IMG/VR virus record: IMGVR_UViG_3300031111_000407
Coordinates: 1-24,635 of that record
DNA: 24,635 bases
DNA from: a virus
Reading direction: 5' to 3' (one strand)
The translations under genes were made by a program, and so were the position numbers. The notes beneath the pieces were generated by a model. That model ran no database searches and had not been told where the DNA came from. It was given only the letters and a program-made list of their open reading frames with translations. This document shows, one piece after another, positions 1,462 through 19,400 of the stretch (positions are counted from its first letter, which is position 1; the number at the start of each line of letters is the position of its first letter).

Positions 1462-4400
1462 CTACTCATATTTAGATATATCTTCTATAAAATTCCTTAT
1501 CAACATCTCCTGAAGGCCCTTAAATTCCTTAACCTGTCGGGGATCCTCTATCAGCTTAATATCTTCATCTATGTATTCAAGGTCATCTTTTAACATATTA
1601 AGCATATCAATCTTTATCTGCCACTCAGGGGTAAATCCCTCCTTCTCATATCTCTCCAGTCCTTTGTTGCGCTGACTTATAAGTGACTTATAATCCTCTA
1701 TCTCATCAACTATTTTATAGTACTTGCTATATACAGTATTATTCCAGGGCTGACGAAGCAATCTGCGTACAATAGGCAGGTTATTCATGTTAACATCATC
1801 AACAATATTCTGAAAGTCCTTGTCACCGGTCATTACTTCTCCGGCTCCCTGTACTATAGATGCACTGGTCTTGACAAGATTATTCCAGAATGTTCCTCTA
1901 CCACCCAGGTAGTATTCAATCATGTGTTCGATATCTGAAGGGTTCTTGTCGAACATATCGCTTACCTTATGTATCTTACCATTGTCATCAAGGTAAAATT
2001 TACTTCCTACATCAGGATCTCCACCACCTACCTTAAACAGGTTATCGGTAAGCCATTTGACACCCGGGTTTACATAGGACTGCCCAAGTGAAGAATCAGC
2101 TATTCTTCCATCAAGAGCTTTAGTAAACGGTTCCCTGTGTATGTTCCTTCCTGTAAAATCAGCATTAACCCATATATCATACCAGGGCATTAGTCCTGTT
2201 GGAACAAGGGGCCTTAGTGTCAACTGCTCATCTTCTCCCAGGAACTCAACTGGGTTAACAGGCGATATTGATGCAAAGGCATTAGAAACAGCATCTTTTA
2301 CGCTGTCCCCTATCGTTTTGCTATCGGTAAACAGGTTTTCGTAAGCTATCACACCAAGACTATTGAACCACCTGAATCCATGAGGCAGGGGTATAGTCAA
2401 GAACCTGTCACCGAAGGGGCTTTTTATGACAAGGTGATTATACTTGACATAATCATTCAAACCCTCATAGTAATTATCTCCTTCATCATCATCTCCACCC
2501 CATAAATGGTTTAGCATAGCAGACAAGAACCCCATTGCCATAAATCCGGCACCTACGCCCAAAAATTTAGCAGTATGTTTCTTGCCCAGGTTATATATAT
2601 TATTACCTCCCTGCAGGGATGCGTTAAAGAAGGCATATAAGGAACCCATCAAGGATGAAGCTCTACCCTTGCGGTTAAAGTTCACAGTGATCTCCTTAGC
2701 TTCAAAGGCAGCCTGCTTGGGCGACTTACCGGCTTCTATTGCAATGATATACGTTGCAAACCTTGACAGGTTCTCACTCCTTATAGCCATGTGTTCCATC
2801 CATTGACCGGCTATTCTCAGGTATTTATTATGTATGGTCTTATCCCATACTGTATTCTTCCCGGTCATCCTTGCCAGTTCCTTCTCCATTTCCTTAGCAA
2901 GCTGGTCCACATCCTTCAGGTGTACCCATCCTGTCTCTCCTCCATTGAGCATAAAATCAAGGTACATCTGGTCATACTTGTTATCAGCCTCCCCTTTGCC
3001 TTTCAGATACCTTATTATTGCTCCCCTGGCTTTAGGCAAGGCTTTCATAAACTCTAAGGACTGTTTTGCATCACCCTTGCAATAATGGGCCAGTGCTGCA
3101 TATTGTAAATCTCGCATCTGGTTTATGGGAATAAAGGCAGGGTTTTTACTGGTAAAGTTGCTTGACAGCCACCTGGTAAGCCTTCCAAAGTTGTTTCGTG
3201 TTATATAAGCCACATTATCCCACCTGGAAGGAGTCTTATTCAGTGCATTGGATACATCAGCCGGAAGAACCATAACATACTTATCGCCATTGATCCATAC
3301 TTCTGTCTCATGCTCTTTAGCCTGTGACATAGCCCTGCCCTTCATGTGTTGGGTATCCTCTTTTGTTAGTACCCATCCTCTATCCCATATATCCTGTGCC
3401 GGTCTTTCGGTTGTTTCGTAATAGTTCTTATTACCCATTTCATCATACGAACCGTCAAATACCCGGTATATCTTCTTAAACTTATGCAGGTCCGTCATAT
3501 CTTTGTTGTTACGGACAAGCCTTGCAGCGTGTTGTTTGATACGGTTTTTCTCACCTGTCACAACTGCCGTATGAGCCATGTTGACTATATACTGCAGGGG
3601 ATCATCTGCCTCTGATTTTCTACCTCTTGCCGTCTTTAGCGGGTTAACCACCTTGCCTACATCCTCTCCCTGGTATTCGTAAAACTCATCAAGCTCTGTT
3701 TTCTTCCAGTTTCTCAGGGGTACATAATAGTCATACATACCTGCTATTTTCTTATACAGGTCAGTCGATATAAAACCATCCTGCATCCATCTCTTTAGCG
3801 TATATCCTGTAGCAGCATTAATCTTATTCCAGAGGGTGTTAATTGTTTCCTCTGTAAACTTACTCTCAAACCTGTCTATAATCTCATTTGCAGCCTCGTC
3901 TGTCATACCTGCATTAACATCCTTGCCAGTCCTCTCCCTTAGTTCAGCGTTGCGTTCCGGGGCGTGTTTGGCTTTCATATACAGGTTTACCTCCTCATAA
4001 TCAATACCTGCTGTGTTCATCATGTTACCTATGGTTTCCAGTAAGGGATCCACATATTTCTCATTATATTGCTCAACAGCGTGTTTAACGGCTCCATGTG
4101 ACAGGTTTTCCTGACGATAAGGATTTGATGATTCGGTTATCATTCCCCCTCTACCCCGTATAGAATTTTGCCATTTCTTAACAGATAACATCCTGTCCTG
4201 CCATGTAGCCTGTCTTTTCTCTGCTGCGGTCTTTATAAGATTTTTAGGAGGTCCTTTTTTCTCGGGGGATTCATCACTAAGCCTGTAGCTTAACCTGTCT
4301 TTAACAGTTATATTATCTTCCCTGAATACTACATAGTTAACTCCTTTACCCCTGCCTTTTTCCCTGTCGCTTATTTCGGTAGGGTAAATAAATCCGTCAA

Positions 4401-7400
4401 TACCTGCCCTGGACAGTAATAATGATGCTTCCTTATCGGATCCCAGTATTCGTGATAATTGTTTATACAGCACCCTTGCAGGTGTAATATCCCAAAGTGC
4501 GTGTTCAAGTGATGCGTCTGTTATACCTTCCCTTGCCAGTTGGTCACTGATAAGGACCACATCCTTATTTTTAAGAGGTTCAAGGAAATTAATAAAGTTC
4601 AGTTCTCCGGGTTTTCTCCCTTTGCGTATCAATACTTTATACAGGTGTCTGTTCTGTGGTAATGGATTATCCTGGATAAACTTGATTGCTTTCTCAAACC
4701 TCAGTGTAATATTCGGGTTATCCTTGTATTTCTCAATCTTTTCCTGCAGGAAGGGTATCACTTTGTTATGGTCATAGCCAGAATAGAATACAGCTTTCTC
4801 AATCCATTTAGCTGACTTCTGCCCTATGAATGTTTCGGCTTTATCGTAATACTCATCATACTTAGCCAGTGCCTCAGCATATCCTTTGGCTACTTCCCTC
4901 TTATCTGTGAAATACATTCCCCATCCGTATGACTGGTATCCCTCACCTGTACCTACCCTGCCAGTTGTGAAATTCTGGATCCCTGCATAAGGACTGCCAT
5001 GCCATGCTTCTACTGCATCCAGGTAATCCTGTGCATTGGTATAATCACTTGCCTTAGGCTTCTGTGACTCCCTGAGCATTTTTCGGGTATCTGCCAGAAG
5101 GTTAATAACATCATTATAGCTGTAGTTGAGCTTAAACAGCTTGCGTATAGCCTGACGGATCCGGGCAATAGCTTTCTGCAGGAGTGTTGGGTTAACATTC
5201 CTCTCTGCCATCAGTGCCAGGTATTCATCAGCTATAGTATCCTTATCTGTTGTATTGTATTTGCGTTCAAGAGCCTGTATATCCTCTATATCCATGCCAT
5301 TATATACCAGGTTCATCACCTCGGTCCATTCTTCGCCCAGCAACCTGCGTACCCCTTTATGACCTACCACCTCATGCATTATAGATTTTAATATCTCATC
5401 AAAGCTGTGGTTGTTATTAAGGATAACATAAATAGAGTCACTTGCAGGATCATATAAACCCTGTACCCTTTTACTCTTGCCTGATCGTATTACCTGGTCC
5501 CTTATTTCCTTTGGAAGATCCTCAATGGTATCTACTGCGTTTATATCAATACCATATTTCTTTGACAGGAGTTCTATCCTTCCCAGTACCTCTTTTTTGG
5601 CTTTTCCTGCCATTGTAGGTTTCTCCAGTTGTTCCTCCAGGGTTTTACCTTTAGGTGTCTCTATGCTGCGATACAAAGGCACACCTTGCTTGAAGGCATT
5701 GAAAAGTTCAGGGGTGATAGGCATTGTATGAACCTTAGTTACTCCTTGAACAAAGTCCACAACTGCCTCAATGTCATAACTATCAAACAGGTCAATACCT
5801 TCTCGGATAACTATATATTTGCCTGCGTCATCCCTTTCAATGGTATAATCAAAGGTTATTGGAACAATATACCCGTTGTTCTTCTTGATTTCTTCTTTAG
5901 CTTCCTCCAGGCTATGAGATGCAAACTTCATAGGGGTTCCATCAGGATTATATGTAAAATATGTCACTCCTTTATTACTTGACCTAAGTTCTAAAGACTG
6001 TACCCTTGCCCCATACTTCTTGCCTATCTTATTTGCAACGGAGGGAAGAATACTATCATAAAAGGACTTCATGCCTTCGCCACCTACTTCGAGGTCTGTG
6101 CCTGTATATTCTATTCTTTTACCGTCATTAGTCTTACCGGTATCTTCAACTATCTTCTTGGCAAGTTCTTTGCCAATATATTCTTCCAGTCTGTTCTCGG
6201 TCAACTCTCCTCCAAAACCTACATATTCCTCCCCTTCATTGGTTGTTATATCAACAGCGTAATTACCATTATCCAGCTTCCTTGCCTTTATCTTCTGAAC
6301 CTGTTTGCTTAGTTCATACCTCTCTGCCTGTTGCTGTCCTGTGGTCCAGGCAATGGCATCAAAGCCATTGTCAATAGCATATCGTATCATCCTACGCATA
6401 GCCAGACCTGCCCATTCGGAAGTCTTTTTGAAGGGCATATCGGGAACCATATTCTCGGTAAGACTTGCCTTGCGGTCATAGTATGTTGTTCTTGCGTTTT
6501 GCAAGCCTTCCTCTGCTGCCTCTCTCCTTTTAATAAGTTCTTTTCTGCTTCGACCAAGAAGTATTGCTCTCTCCCTTATTCTCTCTATTTCATCGTCTAT
6601 CTCTAAATATTCTTTATTACTTCGGACTTCTTTCTGGCGTTCCATAAGCCTCCTGAAGCGTTCATTCCTTGCTGCAAGGAAGTTATAATCACCAAGTTCA
6701 AACCATTCAATCTCTCCGCTACTGGCTCCCTGTGGTAAACCGTATTCTCTCATCTCGGCAAGTACGTCATCAAGCTGTTTCTTAATATCATTAAGGGCTT
6801 TATCCCTTTTGATAAGATCATCCAGGTAGGGTTGTAATGTTTCTTTAAGTCTTTCCGGGGTATTTACAACTCCCCCTTCCCGCCTTATCTTCTGTGCCCA
6901 GTCGCTTTGTATCTCCTCAATAAACAGGATATTCCTCCCCTGTGTGTCTGTACGTTCATTAAGCCTCACATGAGAAATAACATTAGGTTCATCCCAGTGA
7001 CCTGAAAGGAAGTCCCCTTCAAGCGTTGCCCCTCTCTCCTGTATGTCAAAAGGTGCATCCGCATATTCTTCTTCCCATCTGTCTGCCCTTGCCTGTTCTT
7101 CTGCGGGGTCTATAGCTTTAACAGGTTTCTTAAGGGTAAGGAGTATTTCCTTGTAGTTCTTCCCTCCTGGTAAGGTCCATCTGGAATACTTGGTATAATC
7201 CCTTTCTACATAACGGCTCTTGGCAGCCAGGAATCTATCTTCTGCCCTCTTATGAGCATCAACAACATCATGGTAAGCGTTAATATCGTAATCAGGCAGG
7301 TACTTAAGGATGTTATTTACTGCATCTGCCATCTTGTTAGTATTAAAGTTATTAAAGTTCTGCTCATCAAGCTGACGGATCCAGCCTTCCGCATCCTCAA

Positions 7401-10400
7401 CACTTACACCTGATTTTGCTAATGATAATCTTAGCTCGTACCTTTCACTATCATGTTTGTTTATTGTTTCTTGAAGATAATTATAAGCCCTATTATAATC
7501 CATCTCATCATCAGGATCAGTAGTTTTTGACATATCAATCTCTTTTATGTCAATCTTACTGCGGTCAATATGCTGTTGCAGTTCTTCCCGGGTGACAGAC
7601 TTACGATCCTTAAACTTCCCTTCCAGGTCAAGCCAGTCCATCTCACTTTGCTTGGCTCCGTTCTTTACAAGCATAGCCTGCCACTGTGTCCAGGGAGCTT
7701 TATCCTGCTTAATGACATCCAGTGCCTTCTGTGTGTTGGAATAGAATACCTGTTCGTCTGCCAGCCTGAATAGTACTCCCTGTCCTTTATTCTCAATAGC
7801 TGCCCTCTCAGCCTGTTTCTCAAGGTCTGCAAGCCTTTTCTGCAACCTGGCTATCTGGTTATCATAATCTGACAGGATCCTTTTAATATTCTCCTGTGTA
7901 GCATCCATATCCACATCAAAGGTGGTCTTTTGTTCCAGGGTGGGACCGAATACCTCTCCTGCGAATAATGCCCCCTGGGTGTTTATCCTCTTGGACAGTT
8001 CATTTTTCTTATCCTGCCTTGCCTTTGTAACCTTCCTCAGTTCTTCCCTGGTACGTTCAATCTCTGCCTGTAGTCCGTTTGTATAGTCAGTCTGTGGTTC
8101 CATCATAATAGAAGCACCACCTCCCTCACCGGCTTCTATTCTTTTCATATCAAAGGCATCCAGTAGGTTGATATCAGTCGTTTTCAGTTCCTCCTTAATT
8201 CTATTCAACGCAATTACGTCAACCTCGCTTATACCCCTGCCATACAGGATTAATCCGGAAGCATTAAATCTTGCACAATAAGCTCTTGTGTCAGCCATAA
8301 AATCATGGCGATTCTCATTAAGATTTGAGTAAGGATAATGGATATTAGCAACTATCTTGTTCTGGCGGCTCAGGATCAATGCGGACAGTTTATTGCCACT
8401 GGTATGTCTCTGTGCGGAAGCATACTGTGCTGCTTCGTCCTGTTCCTTAATTTTTGCGTGTTTCTCATGCAGATAGTCAATGTCCTTATTAAACACCATC
8501 CTATCAAAACGGTACACCTTATATTCCTTTTCAGGTGCCTGTTTCGGTATTTCGTATGAATTTTCAAAGCCTTCAATACTGCCGAATGTGCCATACAGAC
8601 CTGAATCAATATCTATGATTATACCTAAGGGGTTTATAACATCTCCGAAAGCATCCTTTAGTTTACTCAGGATAGTTATATCTGCCCTGCTTGGATTAAT
8701 GTTACCGGAGGGATGGTTATGTATAAAGTACGTCTTTACAGGGTTAAACCTGTTAATTCCATCTGCTATAGCATTAAAATTAACAATGCTACCGGCATTA
8801 CTGCCTACTGATATGTGCTGAATAACTGATTTACCATTCTCAAGCACATGGAGTGCAAATATATTCTCAACAGCTTTATCTTCCAGTTTACGGAAAAGGA
8901 AGGCAACATCATCCTGTGACTCTATCTTTTCCTTACCATTAAATACAAGGTTCTTGTCAATGGTGTACTTAACCTCAAGGCGTGCAAATTCACCTGGTCC
9001 TAATTTTCGGAGGGATGGTCTGTTTCTACCACTTCTATCCTGACCGGTATCTTCTTCCCGTTGTACTTCTGCGGATCCGCTATCAAGAGGGAGTTCTTGA
9101 TCGAAGGCTGACTCAGCAAGTATAACCGGTTCTTTCTCGGCTTGTCTGTATGTTTGTGGTCTTTCATTTACCTCAAAGTTACGATTATTAAGGAAATCTG
9201 TAGCTTTTGCAAGGAAATTTTTTGCTGCCTGTTCATCTTTAAAATTAAACCCAGGTATTGCACCCTGTCCTTTATATGAACTGTAATATCCTCCCTCATT
9301 CTTAGCCATACGTTTGAGGGAATAGAAATCGTCCTTATCAAGGCGTATGTTCAGCTTAATGGTATGCAGGTCATATCCTTCCTTTGTATGCTGCTGCTTT
9401 ATCAGTTCCAGTTCCCTGCTGGTTGTCATTAGTTTCTCCTGTCTTGGAGTGACCGTTGAAGCCTTGCCTGTGAATACATCATCCAGTTCCTTCATCGCCA
9501 GGTCCTTCTCGCTTGCAAACCCGATAATGTTCTTGATATCAAAACTCTCTGGCATTTCCTCTGCTGACTGTACGATAAAGAAATGTCGCTGAACACCAGC
9601 TACTTCAACAATATTGCGGATAGTGCCTACCCTTATTTTCCCTTCATTATCCTTAAACCGTACAATATGATGTATATTCCACCTCTCAGGCTTCTTAACT
9701 TCTTCTACTTTTCTATCTTCCTTGCTTATCTTGGCTGGTACCTCTACATTCTCAAGTGCATCGAAGAACTCATTGATATTGGTATGTGATGACAGATCTA
9801 TGTTAACTGGTCCAGGTATATCGTATTGGTCAGCCTTATATACTTTGTCGATAACAACAATCTTTGCATTAACACTGGTTCCTGCCCTTTCAAATGATAC
9901 TGACGGAAGGTTAATTTCGGCCCTCAGGAAAGCATCAGGATGAAGTTGTTTCCCATTCTCATCCTCTCCATGCAGGAATTTATCAAGCCTCTTATCCATT
10001 GAAGGACCGGCAGGAATGATAGCAACAACCCTTCCACCCTTCCAGCTAAGATGACCGAAGGCTTTTTCCAGGTGTTCCATTGCTATCTTACCGCCTGTAC
10101 CAAAAGGCGGGTTCATAGCAACACCTTCAAACTTATTGCCTACATAAAAATCCTCAAATCTCTGGTTTACCTTCTTCCCTTCAGCATTAACCATAAGTTT
10201 ACTGAACAATACATTGCTCGGCTCTATGGATGTTAGCTCTACTCCATCAGGGGCAAACCTTGATATAGCTCCATGTCCTGCAGACGGTTCAAGTCCTCTT
10301 TCGCCCCTGTTAAGCTGCAGCCATTGCCACATCTTAAAACCAAGAGGTTCAGGTGTAGCAAAGTAATCTATGCCCTCTGCTGATTTTTCCCTGGAGGTCT

Positions 10401-13400
10401 TTTTCTTGTTAGTATAGTATAATGCTCTTGCCTTCTGGTATGGATCATCTCTCTCAAGTGTCTCGGGCATATCAAACTTTTTGCCACCAGTCCCCTGCTG
10501 CTCGTTAGGACTAAATACATCTGCATTAAGGAATCCATCTTTGAATGATCTTCTCAGGTCCCTTGCCTTGTTACCCAGTGACAGGTTCTCAGTTGTACCT
10601 ATCCTTTCATTTATCTTGCTCCCAAAGTGGTATTTCTCAATATCAAGTCCAAGTACAGGATACTCGAATACAGCATTGCTCATAAGTCCTATCCTGTTTA
10701 TTCTTCCTTCTGCCTGTAATGCAGTGATAGGATCCACCGGCATACCCAGGTTAATAAGTACCCTTTGTTTGTTTCCTGTTATATCATGCAGGTCTATTCC
10801 TTCCCTTCCTGCCTGTTCCTGTATTAATATGATATTACTGCCTGAATTTGGATCATTAAAGAGTGCCTGACGTTCCTTGCGTACTTTCTTAGGTACATCA
10901 CCATTAAAAACCAATAATCCCGGGAAAGCATCCTGTAATTGCTGTATCGGGTTTCTTAAATCCAGTTTAAGACCTAAATATTCAGAATATTTAGCCTGGA
11001 ACTTCTCCCATGCTTCAATAGCCTTTTTATCATCTCTCAGGTATTTCCTTACCCTTATTTTATTATACCAGTCATTATACTCATAATAAGCATTACTGAA
11101 ATCAAATGGATGATCCACCTTTGCCTGTTTGTAGCGATGGAATATAACAACCTTCCTTCCCATCTCCAGGTGTTGTTTTATCCTGGGTATCATCATGCCT
11201 GCCTTCAATACCTCAAATAGCTGGTTTGAATACAGATAATTATAAAATCTGAAATGGATATACTTATCAAGTGCTTCAAATTCAGGATGAGTGTTTTTGT
11301 TAATGCTCAACAGTAGTCTTATACCTTCATTAAGTGAAACACTACCCTTATTGCTGATAATAGGAAAGTCTCTTGAATAATCATAGTCAGTCTGTAACAT
11401 CCTTCCTGCAAAGGATCCCTTCTTAATCATGTTATCTACAAACATCCTCTCCAGGGCAGATACATCAACCTCGGCTTCAGGTGCGGTAAGTTTGTTATAA
11501 CGCATCCTGTACCCGAAGTTAGATATAAAGAACTGGTCCTCCGAACTCCCTTCATTATAGCCGGATTCCATTCTTGAGTCACTACCCATCTTATAGAGGT
11601 AATCGTTAGCATACCTCAGGGTGAAATGGCTCTTGAATGGTGTGGCTGACAGGAATACTACTTTAGTGCGTTCTGAGGCTGTTTTTGCCTTTTCCTGCAG
11701 GTCGGGTAGTACCTCATCCTGTTTTGCCTTGACTTCTTCTAATTCCCTCTCCAGTGGTTCAATTTCGTTACTGTACTCCCATGATACCTGATTTTCTCCC
11801 TTATCCAGGTTGCTGTTATTCTCTGCGTTCCATTCACTAATCCTGCGTTGTATTTCTGCTTCCCGCTTCCATAGTCCTGTATTTGCTTTCAGTCTCTCCA
11901 GTGCCCAGCCATAGTTACGGTTGCTTATCTTGAAATGAGCTTCTGTTCCTGCCGTATTCTGCCCCTTCTGGTTAGCCATAATGTGATGACTCTCATCATA
12001 GATAATAAGGTCAAACTCTCTCTTAAGTAGTTCTGGGTTCTGTTTAAAGTTAGCGTATGTTGTTACATTTATCTTATCCCCTCCATCCTGTGTATTATCA
12101 AGCTGACGTATATCAAGGTTCAGGTTCCTTCCATCCCTGATCCAGTCTTTTGCTTTAATGTCTGTCGGAACAACAATAAGGATATTACTCTTACCCTGTT
12201 TATCAAACCTTTTAGCAACGCCAAGACCTGTATATGTTTTCCCTGTGCCTGTAGCATTAGAAAAAAGCATACCTTTCCCTTCCTGGAATCGTCTTTCAGT
12301 TTTTATTACATCATCATGTTGTTCGGGGAATAGGAACGGTAATGTGTCCTTTATGTTCTGAACATCATTTTCTTTTACTGGGATACTCTCAGCTTCAAGC
12401 TGTGCCTTTACCTTATAGGAAGATACCTTTCGAGTTTTCTCAACATCTCCTCTATCACCTTCTTGTCCTTCTCTCCGAGGTCGGGCCTGTCTTTCTCCAT
12501 GTAAATCAACGCCTCCTGCGGTGAACAGATCTCCGGCAAAACCCTCATCAGATTTAGGTCGTTCATCTTCCTTATGTACCTGCCTATCGCCTCTCTCTCC
12601 AGAAACAGGGGCAATATCTCCCATATCGCCAGGGCTATCCTTTCGGGTTCCTGTAGTGGATAGTTCTGTGCCAGTGCCTTTGCCAGTGCTTTCACTTGTT
12701 TTTCTTCTTCCCTCGCTACTGTCCACTGGTTTTTCAGGAACATCTTGTTCATCAGCTTGTACTTCAGAGGTACCTGCTTGGCTATGTCGTTCAGTATCGA
12801 TTGGTCTATGTTCAACATCTTCTTCTTTTTTTGCAATGTCATTAAATAATTCTGCCTCGTCTATTTCTTCTTCTTCTCCTCTTTCTCCTTCTGCTCCAGT
12901 TCGTATCTCATCTCCCTCACTACTTCCAGGGGTGTTTTCTTCTTCGCTATCGCCAAATGCACGATAAGCTGCTTTAATGCGTTCTTGGATGCTTTTGCCG
13001 TCATTTTTAAGTGTTTTTTTAAAGTCCTTTAACTCTTGCTCTGATAATCCATAAGGAAAGGTAGTAAAATAAAAAGGATCAGCCTCAATTTTTGCTAACA
13101 AGTTTCCTACATTGAAGTAACCTTCCCAGTTTGTAAACTCATCAATGATAGGTCCATAAGTTTCTGAATTGAGTATATAGTCAAAATCTTCATCTCTATC
13201 CATATCCTCAAGGTCAGCCTCTATGACCTCCATATCGGGTATATCTTCCCTGTCCTGTGGTTCTTGCTGGTTCTGTATATCCTCCAGGGCATTAAGCATT
13301 TTACCTCTGGAGGGATACATTTTCATTATCTCAATAACCTCATTGATCATATCCATTGGCCCCTTATCCTCCATGCCGAAGGAATTTTGCAAGGCTTCAT

Positions 13401-16400
13401 TGAATACGTCAAGTGATTGACCTGTGTTCTTTATTGCCCAAATAAACTTACGAAACTCTGTAGTCTTGGGTTTGAAGCCAGTATGAGCAACAAAGTCCTG
13501 TGTTGCTATCCTTCCACCCTTAACAAAGAATTGCAGGGTTGCTTCCAGGAAAGATTCAGGATCCCTTTCAAGTACCTTGTCGGTCCGGGATGGTTTCTTT
13601 TTCCTTGCCGGTTTCTTTTTCTCTACCGGCTTTATTTCCTGCTGTTGGGTTGCTGGTTTCGGCTTAACTCCACTGGCTCTGTCGTCAATGACGAAAATTC
13701 GTTCCATGTTTTCACCTGTGGTTCCTGGTACAGGTGCGTGTGTTTCCTCTATCCTGCCCCTGTGGAGAACGAAATTATAAATGCTTTCTTCTGCATCTAA
13801 GACATTCTGTTTAAATCCTCCATCCTTTTTCCTGGGTGCATCAGTGCGTATTGCTGTAACCCAATAATGATGATAGCCAGGTCTGCCTTGTTTATCCTCC
13901 ACTCTTTTTACTGTCAATACTTCCATTCCCTGAACAGGATAACCTTCGGATGAATAGATACCGTAATCCTCTCTTTTCCATTTATAACTTGGACCGATAT
14001 AGATATTCCTGAATACCATCCCGGGTTTAAGTATCTTAGCCAGGTCGGTTCCCGGATCATTCATTCTCTCCTCTCCTGGTCCTACTTCAGGGGCAAGTCC
14101 TTCCTCTGTTGGTTTCTCGTTTAACTTATTATCTACAGCCTTAACAATAGCCTCCCTGTCAGTCCAGTCCAATCCTTTTTCTCTTAGTTCATCCAGTTCC
14201 TCTTTAGTGAATACACTTACTGCTGCCTCCCTTGCTTTAATCAATGTTTCTCTCCAGCTTTCCCTTAGTCCTTGTTCCTGACTGACTGGTTCCTCCTTCT
14301 TCCATAGGTTCCATACCGGGCTGTCAGGCTTTTCGTATGACCTGCCAACAATAGACTTAACTCCTGCCCTCTTATATAGTCCATCTACAACTGCTAATCC
14401 TAAGCCGGTAATACCACCATTGGCAAGCAGTATTTTCTTTCTGTATAGACTGTCCTTAATCTCTTTGTATCTCTCCTCGTCTATTCCAAGATTTTTAAGA
14501 TACTGTCTGCGGTAAGGTGATTTCAATGTTTTGGTAACATCCATTACGGCCCATTCATCCTTTGTAATCTCAATAGCTGGTGATGTAATACCTTCAGTTG
14601 ATACCGTTGGTTCTGATTCTTTGGCTGCCCTTTCAACCCTGGGTTTTATTACACCCTCTACCGCCTTCTCGGATTTCTCGATAAGCGTTACATCCCTTCC
14701 AGCCTTGACTGCCTCTGCACCTGTTACACCGCTACCAGCAAAGGGATCCAGTATCATATCTTTCTCGTATGTGGTCATCTCAATGAGTTTACGGAGCATT
14801 TCAGCCGGTTTCTCAGTAGGATAACCCTTAGGTCTTACCAGGTCAAAGTCAAGGTCAAACTCCTTGCTTATAGGGGTAAATTCGCCTGATTTTGTCATTA
14901 ATACAATAGCTTCAGGGGGAAGGAAGTCTTTACGCATAGGCATAGTCACCCTGTTACCATTACGGTAATACTTGGTATAGAACCCTTTTGCTACAGGTTT
15001 AAACTCTTTTTCGATCACCTGCAGGTATTCTTCCATATCCTTTGTACCGGTCTTGGAGGTTGAGTGCATAAACAGGACTGGGGTATCTTCTGACCTTGCT
15101 ATCTGTGATATGCTCTGAACAACCTTATCAAACTGCTGTGGGGATATCTTATCAAAGTTCAGTTCCCTGTTACCTGACTTGATAGCTGATGTTGTATAAG
15201 GAATATCCAGAAATATCATATCCGCCTTAAACCCTTCCTTTGCAAGCCTGGGTAATACTTCCACTGCATCACCTGCATGGATCCATGCTGTAGTCTTGCC
15301 ATCTTCTGTGACAAGTTTATATACACCTTTGTCAACTCGTTCAAACTCTCCTTGTTTGGTACCTACTCCAAGTATCCTGCGAATGCTAGGCTCTACTATA
15401 CCTGTTTCATCTGCTATCTCCTTTATAGACTTGGATTCTTCACCCTTCAATACCTGTTTGACCTGTTCTTTCTGTGTCTTTGGTTTCTCAAGTATGTCAC
15501 CGGCGAACTCAGCTTTTTTTAGAGGGCCACCTATTTCATTAAGTTTTGCTTTTGCTTCCTTTAATAGCTTCTCGGCATAAGCGATATCTGATTTCGTTTC
15601 TGCACCTTCTTTCCGTTTGGACATATTTTCAATAAACCTTTCAAGTCCATGCCTGAGTGCTTCCTTTCGGGTTGCAAATGCCTTAGAATGAATTGAAGGA
15701 GCAGAACCACCACCTGAAGAACCTAAACTCCATGAATACTCTGAGGCCCAATACCCATTCGGACTTTTCGCAAGGTCTATACGGTTCATAACTGCCCATC
15801 CTTTTTTATCAGGCGTTAATCCCACTTCTTCTCTTTCCCAGTTTTGCTCTCCTGGTGTTTTGTTAGCAAGCTCATCACTGAACCCCCAACCTTTGCCTAT
15901 AGTTCCCCAGGGGTAATCAGGATCACCATGTTTCAAGTAACCAACTTTACGTTGTAAGGCAAATAGCTCCTCTATAGCTGTATTAAGTGTTTCAATATTT
16001 TCTATCGACTTATACTTCTCGCTAAACTCATTGTATGCCTGTCTTTTAACCTCCTCTTGCTTATCCTCTTGTTCTTTCAGTAATTCACCTACTGGCTTCT
16101 TGGTCCTGGTACCATTTCCTAACCACTCTTTAAACTCATCAATATCCATCTCTACTATTTCACCCAGACCCTTCCATCCGGGTTCATAGTTAGCCAGGTA
16201 ATTATCCTCAGCCTCTTTGAAGTTCTCAAAGCCAAGCATAACTTTATGTTCATCAAACTCGCCTGTTCCGGGAACCACCTGGTCAATGACAAATACCTTT
16301 TTGCTTTCAAGGTTATCACCCAGGAATACATCCACCTGGTCGCCATCTTTGCCCTCAGTCCTGCGGAAATAACCATAGGGGTTATGTAGCATCACACTCC

Positions 16401-19400
16401 ACTTGTTGCCCTTGCTGTCTTTCCCGGACCGTATGCTCAAAGCAGGTTGCTCAATAGATATCTCCATTCCTTGTATTGACACATGACCTTTCTTGTAATT
16501 ACCTGCCTTCTTTTGTGCCTCTGAGGGAGAAGTATCTACCTTTGCTGACTCTTTTTCGACCTCTGCCTGTTTGGAGGGAGCTTGTTCTTCTTCCTGTTCA
16601 GTTTTTTCCTCCTTTTCAACCGGTGTTGCCTCTTTACCGGCTTCATAGATTACCTCTCCTTTTGCATTTGTGACTCTCAGGATATCGTCAATAGTAAGCC
16701 CTTTACCAAGTCTTATGCCTGTCTCGTCATTCTCTTGTCCTGATTCTACTGCTGATTTATCAATTACCTCAGGCTTAAACTCAATGATAACTCCATCATC
16801 CTTGCTCTTGGCATAATCATCGGCGTATTCCTTTTTATCAGTTATCCATGTAGCTTCTTGCATATTGTCAGAGGATATTACTCCTCCATCCTGGATTGCC
16901 TCCCATTCCGATAATGTGGTTCCCCTGTATGTTGGTCTTAACTGTTCTAATCCATATTTCTCCCTCTCTGTTGGTTCCTTCTGATCAACTTCTCCCTCTG
17001 CTTTTTCAGGCTGTGGCTTGACAACCATAGCACCAGCACCACCTGTAGGCGGCTTTTCTGGCGGCTTCTCTTTTATATCCTTAGCAGCTCCCTCTACATC
17101 GAAAAATAAAGGAATATTTAAGGAATATTTCTTATTTATCTTTCCTATTACCTCATTAACAGGCATACCAGACCTAAGCATCTCTTGAGCCACCCTCTGG
17201 AACTCAGACCTTTCCTTTCTGCTCTTCCCTTTTTCAGAAACAATATTGTTCCTTATATGACGCCATGCAGGATCGGTTTCACCTACTACAGTTGTAGTCT
17301 CGTCAACACCCGAGGTTTCTTTGGTAGTTTCTTCTGCTTTCTGTTCGGGTTCAGCCTTAATTTCTTCTTCCTCTTTTAAGGGTTCAGCCTTATTAATCTC
17401 CTCAATAACCTCAGGATTGAGTTCTGTAGCTTTAGCAACCAACATCTCTGTCAGTTCGTCATCATTCTTAACAGTCACTCCTTCCAGGTCAGATATATCT
17501 GTTGCTCCTTCGATAATACCTATTATCTCATCCCTGTCCGCCTTATCTTTGCCCACCTTATACTCCGGTACAGCTTCCGGAAACCTCTCAGCAACCATCT
17601 TATCCAGGTCCTTATCATTCTTCCATGCAAGTCCGTTAAGGTCATTAAGGCTCTTAGCAACTCTGATACGCCCCTTGACATATCCTTTGGTTACTTCTTT
17701 ACCATTGAAACTATAGTCAGGTAGTTCCTGTTCGGGTATTTCTTCCTGTTCCCCTGGTTGTTCTTCCTCTTGCTGTCCTGTCCTTTGTATGTTAGCAGCA
17801 TCCTCAGGTTTTATCTCTATTGATTCACCTACTCCATCTTCTGTTATCTCATCAACATACAGTGTACCATCCGTTCCTATCTCGGAAATAGACCACTTCC
17901 TGTCCATGTAATTTATTTCCTCCCCGGGAGCAAGGGGTGTTTCTTCCTCTTTCTCCTGCATCTCTGCTTCTACCTCTGCCTGTACCTGCTGTTGTGCTGC
18001 TACTTCCTCTGATTGTTGTATGGTCTGATAGTAAGCCTCCATCTCACTTTGCATCCATTCATCCAGAGAAATTTCATTACGTTCAGCAATATCTGTTTCC
18101 TTCAGTATAACAAGTTCCATTGTTTCGGCATTGAGGGCAACAAAGGTTTTCTTGCCCAACGCCTTCGGTCCTTCACTTTTCAGGAATAGTATATTTCCTT
18201 CTTTATCCTGGACAGAGCTTATCATGTCACTACCTTCAAAGGATATCTTCTCACCGAATGAACGGATCTGTCTCTCAGCACTCTTATTAACCAGTTCCCT
18301 CTCCAGTTGTGGTAAATTTTCCTGTCCCTGCTTATATGCATCCAGGAATTGACTTACTTCCTGTGGCTTAAGGGTTATACTCTTGGCTATATCTTCCCTT
18401 GTTATAGTCTTAGGTCTAAGGTCGTTGTCAATAACGGTCATCTGTCCGTTCTTTCCTGTACCTACATATTCAAATACATCACCGTCTTTTGTCTCAAGAA
18501 GGGTTACTTTGCCTTCTTTATTCCTTCTCAGGTAATGGTATGCCTTATTGGAAGAAACTGTTATCGGTCCCAGGAAACCACCCATTGCATAACCACCGGC
18601 TGCTGCTCGTAACGAATTTTGTACTGCATCTCCTATGGTATGCTTATGTTCAGGATCCAGGTATATGTTTTGTGCAAGAGTCTGTATGAACTCAGCAAAT
18701 AACTCCTCGCCTCCTTCTTCCATTCCCTGAATGTTTACCTTCCGTATGAAACCTATTAGCTTCTGATATTTGTTAGGGAATTTTTTTGCCCACTTGGAAA
18801 GGATATCACTGCTTACCTCAGGGTTTTTCCTGAGTATATTACCCATCAATTTACCTGTCAGTCCATTAGGCACAAACTTATCCAGTGCCATATTAAGCCT
18901 CATTTTCTCAGATGCATACTCGGCTGCTCCTGCAAGTAAAGCTACTCCCCATCTCTCAAGTTCATTGGGATCCTTTCCTGTTTCTTCAACGTACTTGTCA
19001 TATTGCCGTAACTGATCACCTACTACTGCACTTGACAGTACCAGAAGGTTTCCTCCAGATACCAGGGCAGGTATGGCCGCCAGTGCCGGTGCCCCTCCTG
19101 TGGCTGCTGTGGCTACTGCTGCAGCTACCGTTCCCATTGCCTGAGGCAACATATTGGCTGCATTGAACACAAAGCCTTTACCCTTTATCCCTTCAGCTAT
19201 CTCAAACTTTTCCTCTGATGCCTGGGTTACTCTGTCTATAAGGTTATCGAAAGATTCATCATTATCACTTGCCTCGACCATTCCCTCATACATCTCCTTG
19301 CTGTTCGGGAATAAGGGATTGTATGGTACTCCTCCAGGTGCAAGGGCAGTACCCATCTTTGATATCTGTGGTAATGTTTCAGCAAAAAAATTACCAACCC

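Follow-up and report, generated by a model that had tools for sequence, protein, structure and literature searches.

A nested, probably overprinted gene for a helical protein inside the giant DarB-like polyvalent genes of phages

We have analyzed a viral stretch of 24,635 nucleotides (IMG/VR record IMGVR_UViG_3300031111_000407, positions 1 to 24,635, hereafter the window), a phage record of 24.6 kb in which a giant gene of the DarB-like polyvalent type (1462..19671, minus strand) adjoins a P22-type portal gene. Inside this giant gene, on the same strand, there is a second open reading frame (ORF). Our comparison with relatives indicates that this is a genuine and ancient overprinted gene located just ahead of the helicase domain. 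More than 130 related genes of phages and prophages carry it in the equivalent position, and we consider it almost certain that it codes for a real protein.

The ORF extends from 12408 to 12842 on the minus strand (144 codons) in frame +1 with respect to the giant gene (19671-12842 = 6829, remainder 1 modulo 3). The original prediction, made from the sequence of the window, had pointed to this same-strand frame one base out of step, and its codon counts were exact: 10 of the 12 isoleucines are encoded by ATA, the arginines by AGG (8) or AGA (2), and in the linker read from the giant frame CGA accounts for 5 of the 14 arginine codons and AGG for one. The longest +1 open run of the whole giant gene, 150 codons, is found at the embedded ORF, the next longest being of 78. 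When the linker was resampled synonymously (here and below, expected values come from simple codon and substitution models), a +1 run of such length appeared in 79 of 20000 resamplings (p about 0.004). Judged from the window alone the long open run is suggestive of coding; the comparative data are decisive.

Searching annotated phages by tblastn with the embedded protein, we found significant matches only within giant PLxRFG/DarB-like genes, among them those of the phages Klebsiella ZX1 (E=2e-6) and Serratia Parlo (E=1e-6). When the Parlo protein served as query in a further round, matches also appeared in Ruegeria and Vibrio phages and in Acinetobacter and Comamonas replicons, all of them in +1. 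Specifically, in Klebsiella ZX1, Serratia Parlo, Pseudomonas Skulduggery, Ruegeria 45A6, Vibrio D274 and Vibrio 1.232.O the match lies always in +1 inside the annotated giant coding sequence, and in the first phages named the distance from the start of the coding sequence to that of the match leaves a remainder of 1 modulo 3. The conserved proteins have about 120-150 amino acids and share the motifs M[Y/H]QxPxxxWNxIA at the start and LPExxxxxEA further on. At the site of the embedded gene a single coding sequence is annotated in the nine named phage and plasmid records, and the protein has probably escaped annotation since the giant frame is the only one that gene callers report.

The alignment of embedded proteins (A1) was too variable for scanning the collection. 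The census was therefore anchored on a profile of the helicase segment, built from the main frame only (A2), so that loci were selected without reference to the ORF and the selection bias was removed. This profile gave 148 loci, 80 in viral contigs and 68 in genomes. With a first profile of the embedded protein a homologue was detected in 127 loci (the census plus the nine named records and the window); in 127/127 it was in +1 and in 127/127 it lay within a stop-free main frame. A refined profile (A3) added eight further loci, again all +1. Of the 148 helicase-selected loci, 125 thereby carry a homologue, in every case in +1 and within a single open main ORF. A second open frame wholly contained in another gene, with its protein conserved among relatives, is what is expected of an overprinted gene, as the original prediction had proposed. 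Judging by the genome titles, the hosts include Pseudomonadota, Bacteroidota, Bacillota, Campylobacterota, Verrucomicrobiota and other phyla, some of the genomes being metagenome bins whose host assignment may be wrong.

In nearly all loci the embedded gene is directly 5' of the helicase codons, and it always accompanies the helicase module, also in loci whose main protein has only about 1245-1283 codons. The 23 loci without a homologue are ORFs that start at the helicase itself, without N-terminal extension, and are 840-880 codons long or truncated (as is L016). In a tree of the helicases, 17 of the 18 distinct sequences lacking the embedded gene fall in one group, mainly of short helicases of Bacteroidota type. 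To this kind of stand-alone helicase, of 840-870 codons and with neither extension nor embedded gene, belong loci L021, L024-L026, L028-L030, L034, L035, L038, L039 and L041-L043, as well as L078, L095, L098, L102 and L104-L106, mainly of Bacteroidota type. A scan with the N-terminal DNA motif, blind to the context, retrieved 27 stretches, of which 3 were chance matches and 24 true homologues (23 nested in +1 and one cut by the end of the sequence). No stand-alone copy of the embedded gene was found in the 369 + 395 genomes searched. Scans of the viral contigs with a single protein (that of the window or that of locus L103) gave no match, the sequences being too divergent for back-translated peptide patterns.

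The pattern of nucleotide change tells the two frames apart. In 13 near pairs there were 594 substitutions within the overlap, distributed over the three embedded codon positions as 136/116/342, with a clear dominance of the third. The original prediction had proposed computing synonymous and nonsynonymous rates in each frame among homologues, and the ratio of observed to expected nonsynonymous changes was 0.66 in the embedded frame against 1.18 in the giant one. The neighbouring helicase, taken as a control, had ratios of 0.51 for the frame that encodes it and 1.17 for its silent +1 frame. Compared with this last value, the 0.66 of the embedded frame denotes purifying selection, whereas on amino acids the giant frame behaves in the overlap like an untranslated frame. 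In 116/116 nonredundant loci the giant frame has no stop, whereas resampling the embedded codons synonymously would leave it open in 6.5, which makes its translation through the overlap very probable. The simplest reading of these sequence data would be that the giant protein crosses the overlap as a free linker and that the embedded frame carries the conserved protein. Bulky hydrophobic residues have a median across loci of 12% in the giant frame versus 33% in the embedded one.

Relatives that kept the linker while their +1 frame accumulated stops or changed at random would contradict an overprinted gene. We looked for them and the opposite was found, with the sole exception of a degraded prophage of Pseudomonas thermotolerans (L140, 5873-5971). 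This locus preserves the conserved start and a full AAGGAGG site, but its embedded ORF has 32 codons and its main ORF 542. It seems to be a prophage in decay that has suffered an internal deletion, and we do not take it as counter-evidence.

Structure prediction agrees with this division of roles, and the helical product and disordered linker that had been foreseen from the sequence were both recovered in the models. AlphaFold2, run on the embedded protein with 101 relatives, returned an all-helical model of eight helices with a mean predicted local distance difference test score (pLDDT) of 95.6 and a predicted template modelling score (pTM) of 0.88. Read in the giant frame, this DNA gave, for the same loci and depth (102 aligned), a pLDDT of 57.5, a pTM of 0.15 and no secondary structure. 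This low-complexity linker occupies 12409..12819 (minus strand), about amino acids 2285-2421 of the giant protein. Foldseek found no fold similar to the helical model in PDB and BFVD (best E about 1), and no family of Pfam, PHROG, NCBIfam or PADLOC matched more than 2 of the 102 members. A weak match to phrog_7897 (E=0.0039) was discarded, since only 1 of the 102 members gives it. Sequence searches of PDB had as best match a designed tetratricopeptide repeat protein (E=0.014), and with the protein of the window alone there was no useful match. As no profile or fold match stands out, the model would correspond to a new family with a new fold. Charge is variable in the family (isoelectric point 4.05-9.82, median 4.96), and the range of net charge, from -18 to +7, rules out a DNA-mimic (Ocr-like) role as its general function.

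The original prediction gave the product 144 amino acids; the frame and the stop stand, but the start probably does not. The alignment of embedded proteins opens at a methionine equivalent to Met9 of the window (12818), and because the homologues start at this conserved methionine the true start is probably there. The gene would then be 12408..12818 (minus strand), 136 amino acids plus stop. The eight additional codons up to the ATG at 12842 (12819..12842, minus strand) do not align with the relatives and are probably outside the gene. At the conserved site the start codon was ATG in 114 and GTG in 3 of 117 nonredundant loci; the middle base of the ATG falls on a third codon position of the giant gene. 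A Shine-Dalgarno match of 5 nt or more precedes it in 58/117, mostly at 6-9 nt, versus 0-10/117 at ten control offsets. In 53/126 loci an in-frame stop precedes the ATG by at most 10 codons, and in 13 by at most 2. The family has translation start signals of its own, with a Shine-Dalgarno site in most lineages but weak in the clade of the window, and the conserved start with its Shine-Dalgarno sites together with the close upstream stops favours internal initiation over frameshifting. We regard internal initiation as very probable.

Other origins of the frame fare badly against these data. Programmed +1 frameshifting, by which the product would be a truncated giant protein ending in a helical domain, would also require the relative frame to be always +1, as it is; the homology, however, begins exactly at the conserved start codon with its Shine-Dalgarno site, and the upstream stops just mentioned speak against such an entry, so that we see it as very improbable. 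A chance ORF or artefact, produced by the low-complexity composition of the linker or by assembly frameshifts, would find some room in the resampling of the window alone. It is refuted by the comparative data, namely the conservation of the protein, the selection by codon position, the conserved start with Shine-Dalgarno sites, the confident fold and the recurrence across hosts of many phyla and independently sequenced isolates, and its probability is negligible. The absence of amino acid constraint (1.18) and of fold in the linker could also suggest that only the embedded frame codes and that the giant gene is really two genes with a spurious linker reading. The main frame open in every nonredundant locus makes this hardly credible.

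Regarding function, it is plausible that the embedded protein is a new element of the DarB-like system, as had been suggested. In phage P1, Ulx is packaged with DarB; it is listed as an aid to the localization of DarB and connected with the same EcoB/EcoK protection as DarB (PMC9024508, PMC12810830). In Thermus phages ulx also follows darB (PMC11437467). Like the embedded protein, Ulx is small (17 kDa) and has its gene next to the sequence for a large antirestriction protein with methylase and helicase, and we propose it as a possible functional analogue, with the difference that Ulx has a separate gene downstream of darB and the embedded gene is nested. Ribosomes would initiate internally on the late mRNA, and the small helical protein would be made alongside the giant one, probably in more copies. 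With less certainty, it may bind the DarB-like protein at its helicase/methylase part and could aid the folding, inactivity, packaging or ejection of that protein, as Ulx would do for DarB in P1. Because no stand-alone copy was found, the position is fixed beside the helicase and P1 Ulx is packaged with DarB, we lean slightly towards a partner of the giant protein, acting in its packaging, assembly or activity. The complete explanation (an overprinted gene, internally initiated, whose product is an Ulx-like partner of the DarB-like protein) seems to us to have a little more in its favour than against it. Some observations do weigh against it. For a gene that overprinting tends to hold in place, genetic linkage is weak evidence of a physical partnership. 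Some related helicases, which form a clade, operate without the embedded gene, and the window, like most of its closest relatives, has no good Shine-Dalgarno site at 12818. Bacteroidota make little use of such sites. Finally, no similarity to Ulx was detectable (hhalign probability 0.1% over 13 columns) and the P1 genome contained no homologue of the embedded protein, so membership of the Ulx family was rejected.

Alternatively, the protein might act on its own as an effector, for instance by inhibiting a host defence or host process, and have no more in common with the giant gene than the DNA they occupy. The novel fold and the variable charge would suit this, and giant polyvalent loci are rich in anti-host functions (PMC5512222). 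Against it, three independent searches found no other genomic context, and the constant neighbourhood of the helicase module, even with main proteins of only about 1245-1283 codons, suggests a tie to that module. We consider it possible, but clearly less probable than a partner. Less probable again, and in our opinion unlikely, is an inhibitor that would prevent the giant protein's helicase/methylase from acting in the producing cell and be shed after ejection. The location directly 5' of the helicase codons and the fact that the helicases devoid of the embedded gene form a separate clade of short genes would fit such a role, but no known inhibitor fold was matched by Foldseek in PDB or BFVD. 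Returning to the partner of the giant protein, its generalization, an ancient overprinted gene with a new fold that would be a universal hidden component of helicase-bearing DarB-like systems, made together with the giant injected antirestriction protein, needed by it and conserved in phages of many bacterial phyla, is a proposal that we find marginally more convincing than not.

Nested genes are already known in phages as a kind. In phiX174, gene E is nested in D. Another case is Rz1 of lambda, nested in Rz (PMC5295617). In both pairs, as here, a complete gene is nested in another phage gene on the same strand and in a shifted frame. In them, however, both products are functional and have a known role, whereas here the outer frame is an unconstrained linker and the nested one is constrained and folded. 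This inverted constraint and the conservation across many host phyla set the embedded gene apart, and make it a neat natural example of overprinting, where the outer frame needs only to be open and the fold belongs to the inner one. The antirestriction gene ardD is likewise contained in another gene, tniA of Tn5053 (PMC3533173), although on the opposite strand and in a transposon, and the likeness is one of description only. In the literature searched (preprints lay outside and subscription papers were few, so that an earlier description is possible) we found no previous report of the family, its fold or its location. The conserved phage protein is absent from public annotation, PHROGs and Pfam, and it is probably a new component of the DarB-like antirestriction systems, about whose mechanism of delivery little is understood.

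The giant gene itself has 6069 codons without internal stop and matches PHROG 10089 ('DarB-like antirestriction') in a PHROG profile search. Its protein carries the Pfam domains InPase, N6_N4_Mtase, ResIII, Helicase_C, RadC and LPD38, that is, a large protein combining a DNA methylase, a superfamily 2 (SF2) helicase and polyvalent-associated domains, as corresponds to a DarB-like polyvalent protein. The N6_N4_Mtase domain (14656..15069, minus strand; E=6.6e-17, amino acids 1535-1672) is upstream of the embedded gene, and the start of the SF2-type helicase, ResIII (11959..12324, minus strand; E=1.8e-14, amino acids 2450-2571), is directly downstream. By its LPD38, methylases, helicase and RadC, the giant gene belongs to the class of polyvalent proteins of Iyer, Burroughs and Aravind (2017, PMC5512222). 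A text search of that paper gave no instance of 'overlap' and a single one of 'frame' and of 'embedded', and the passages retrieved describe no overlapping gene.

Between the embedded gene and the helicase, nine loci (L069, L070, L088, L092, L112, L113, L119, L123 and L130) have about 365-950 extra main-frame bases, which represent an insertion between linker and helicase. Just upstream of the embedded gene in the window and in the same +1 frame there is an ORF of 47 amino acids (12861-13004, minus strand; MTAKASKNALKQLIVHLAIAKKKTPLEVVREMRYELEQKEKEEKKKK). It was rejected as part of the gene, as it is not conserved in the nearest relatives, and is probably due to chance or lineage-specific. The two +1 open runs of 78 codons are found at 8376-8609 and 16155-16376 (both minus strand); the latter falls within the InPase domain and is probably a product of chance.
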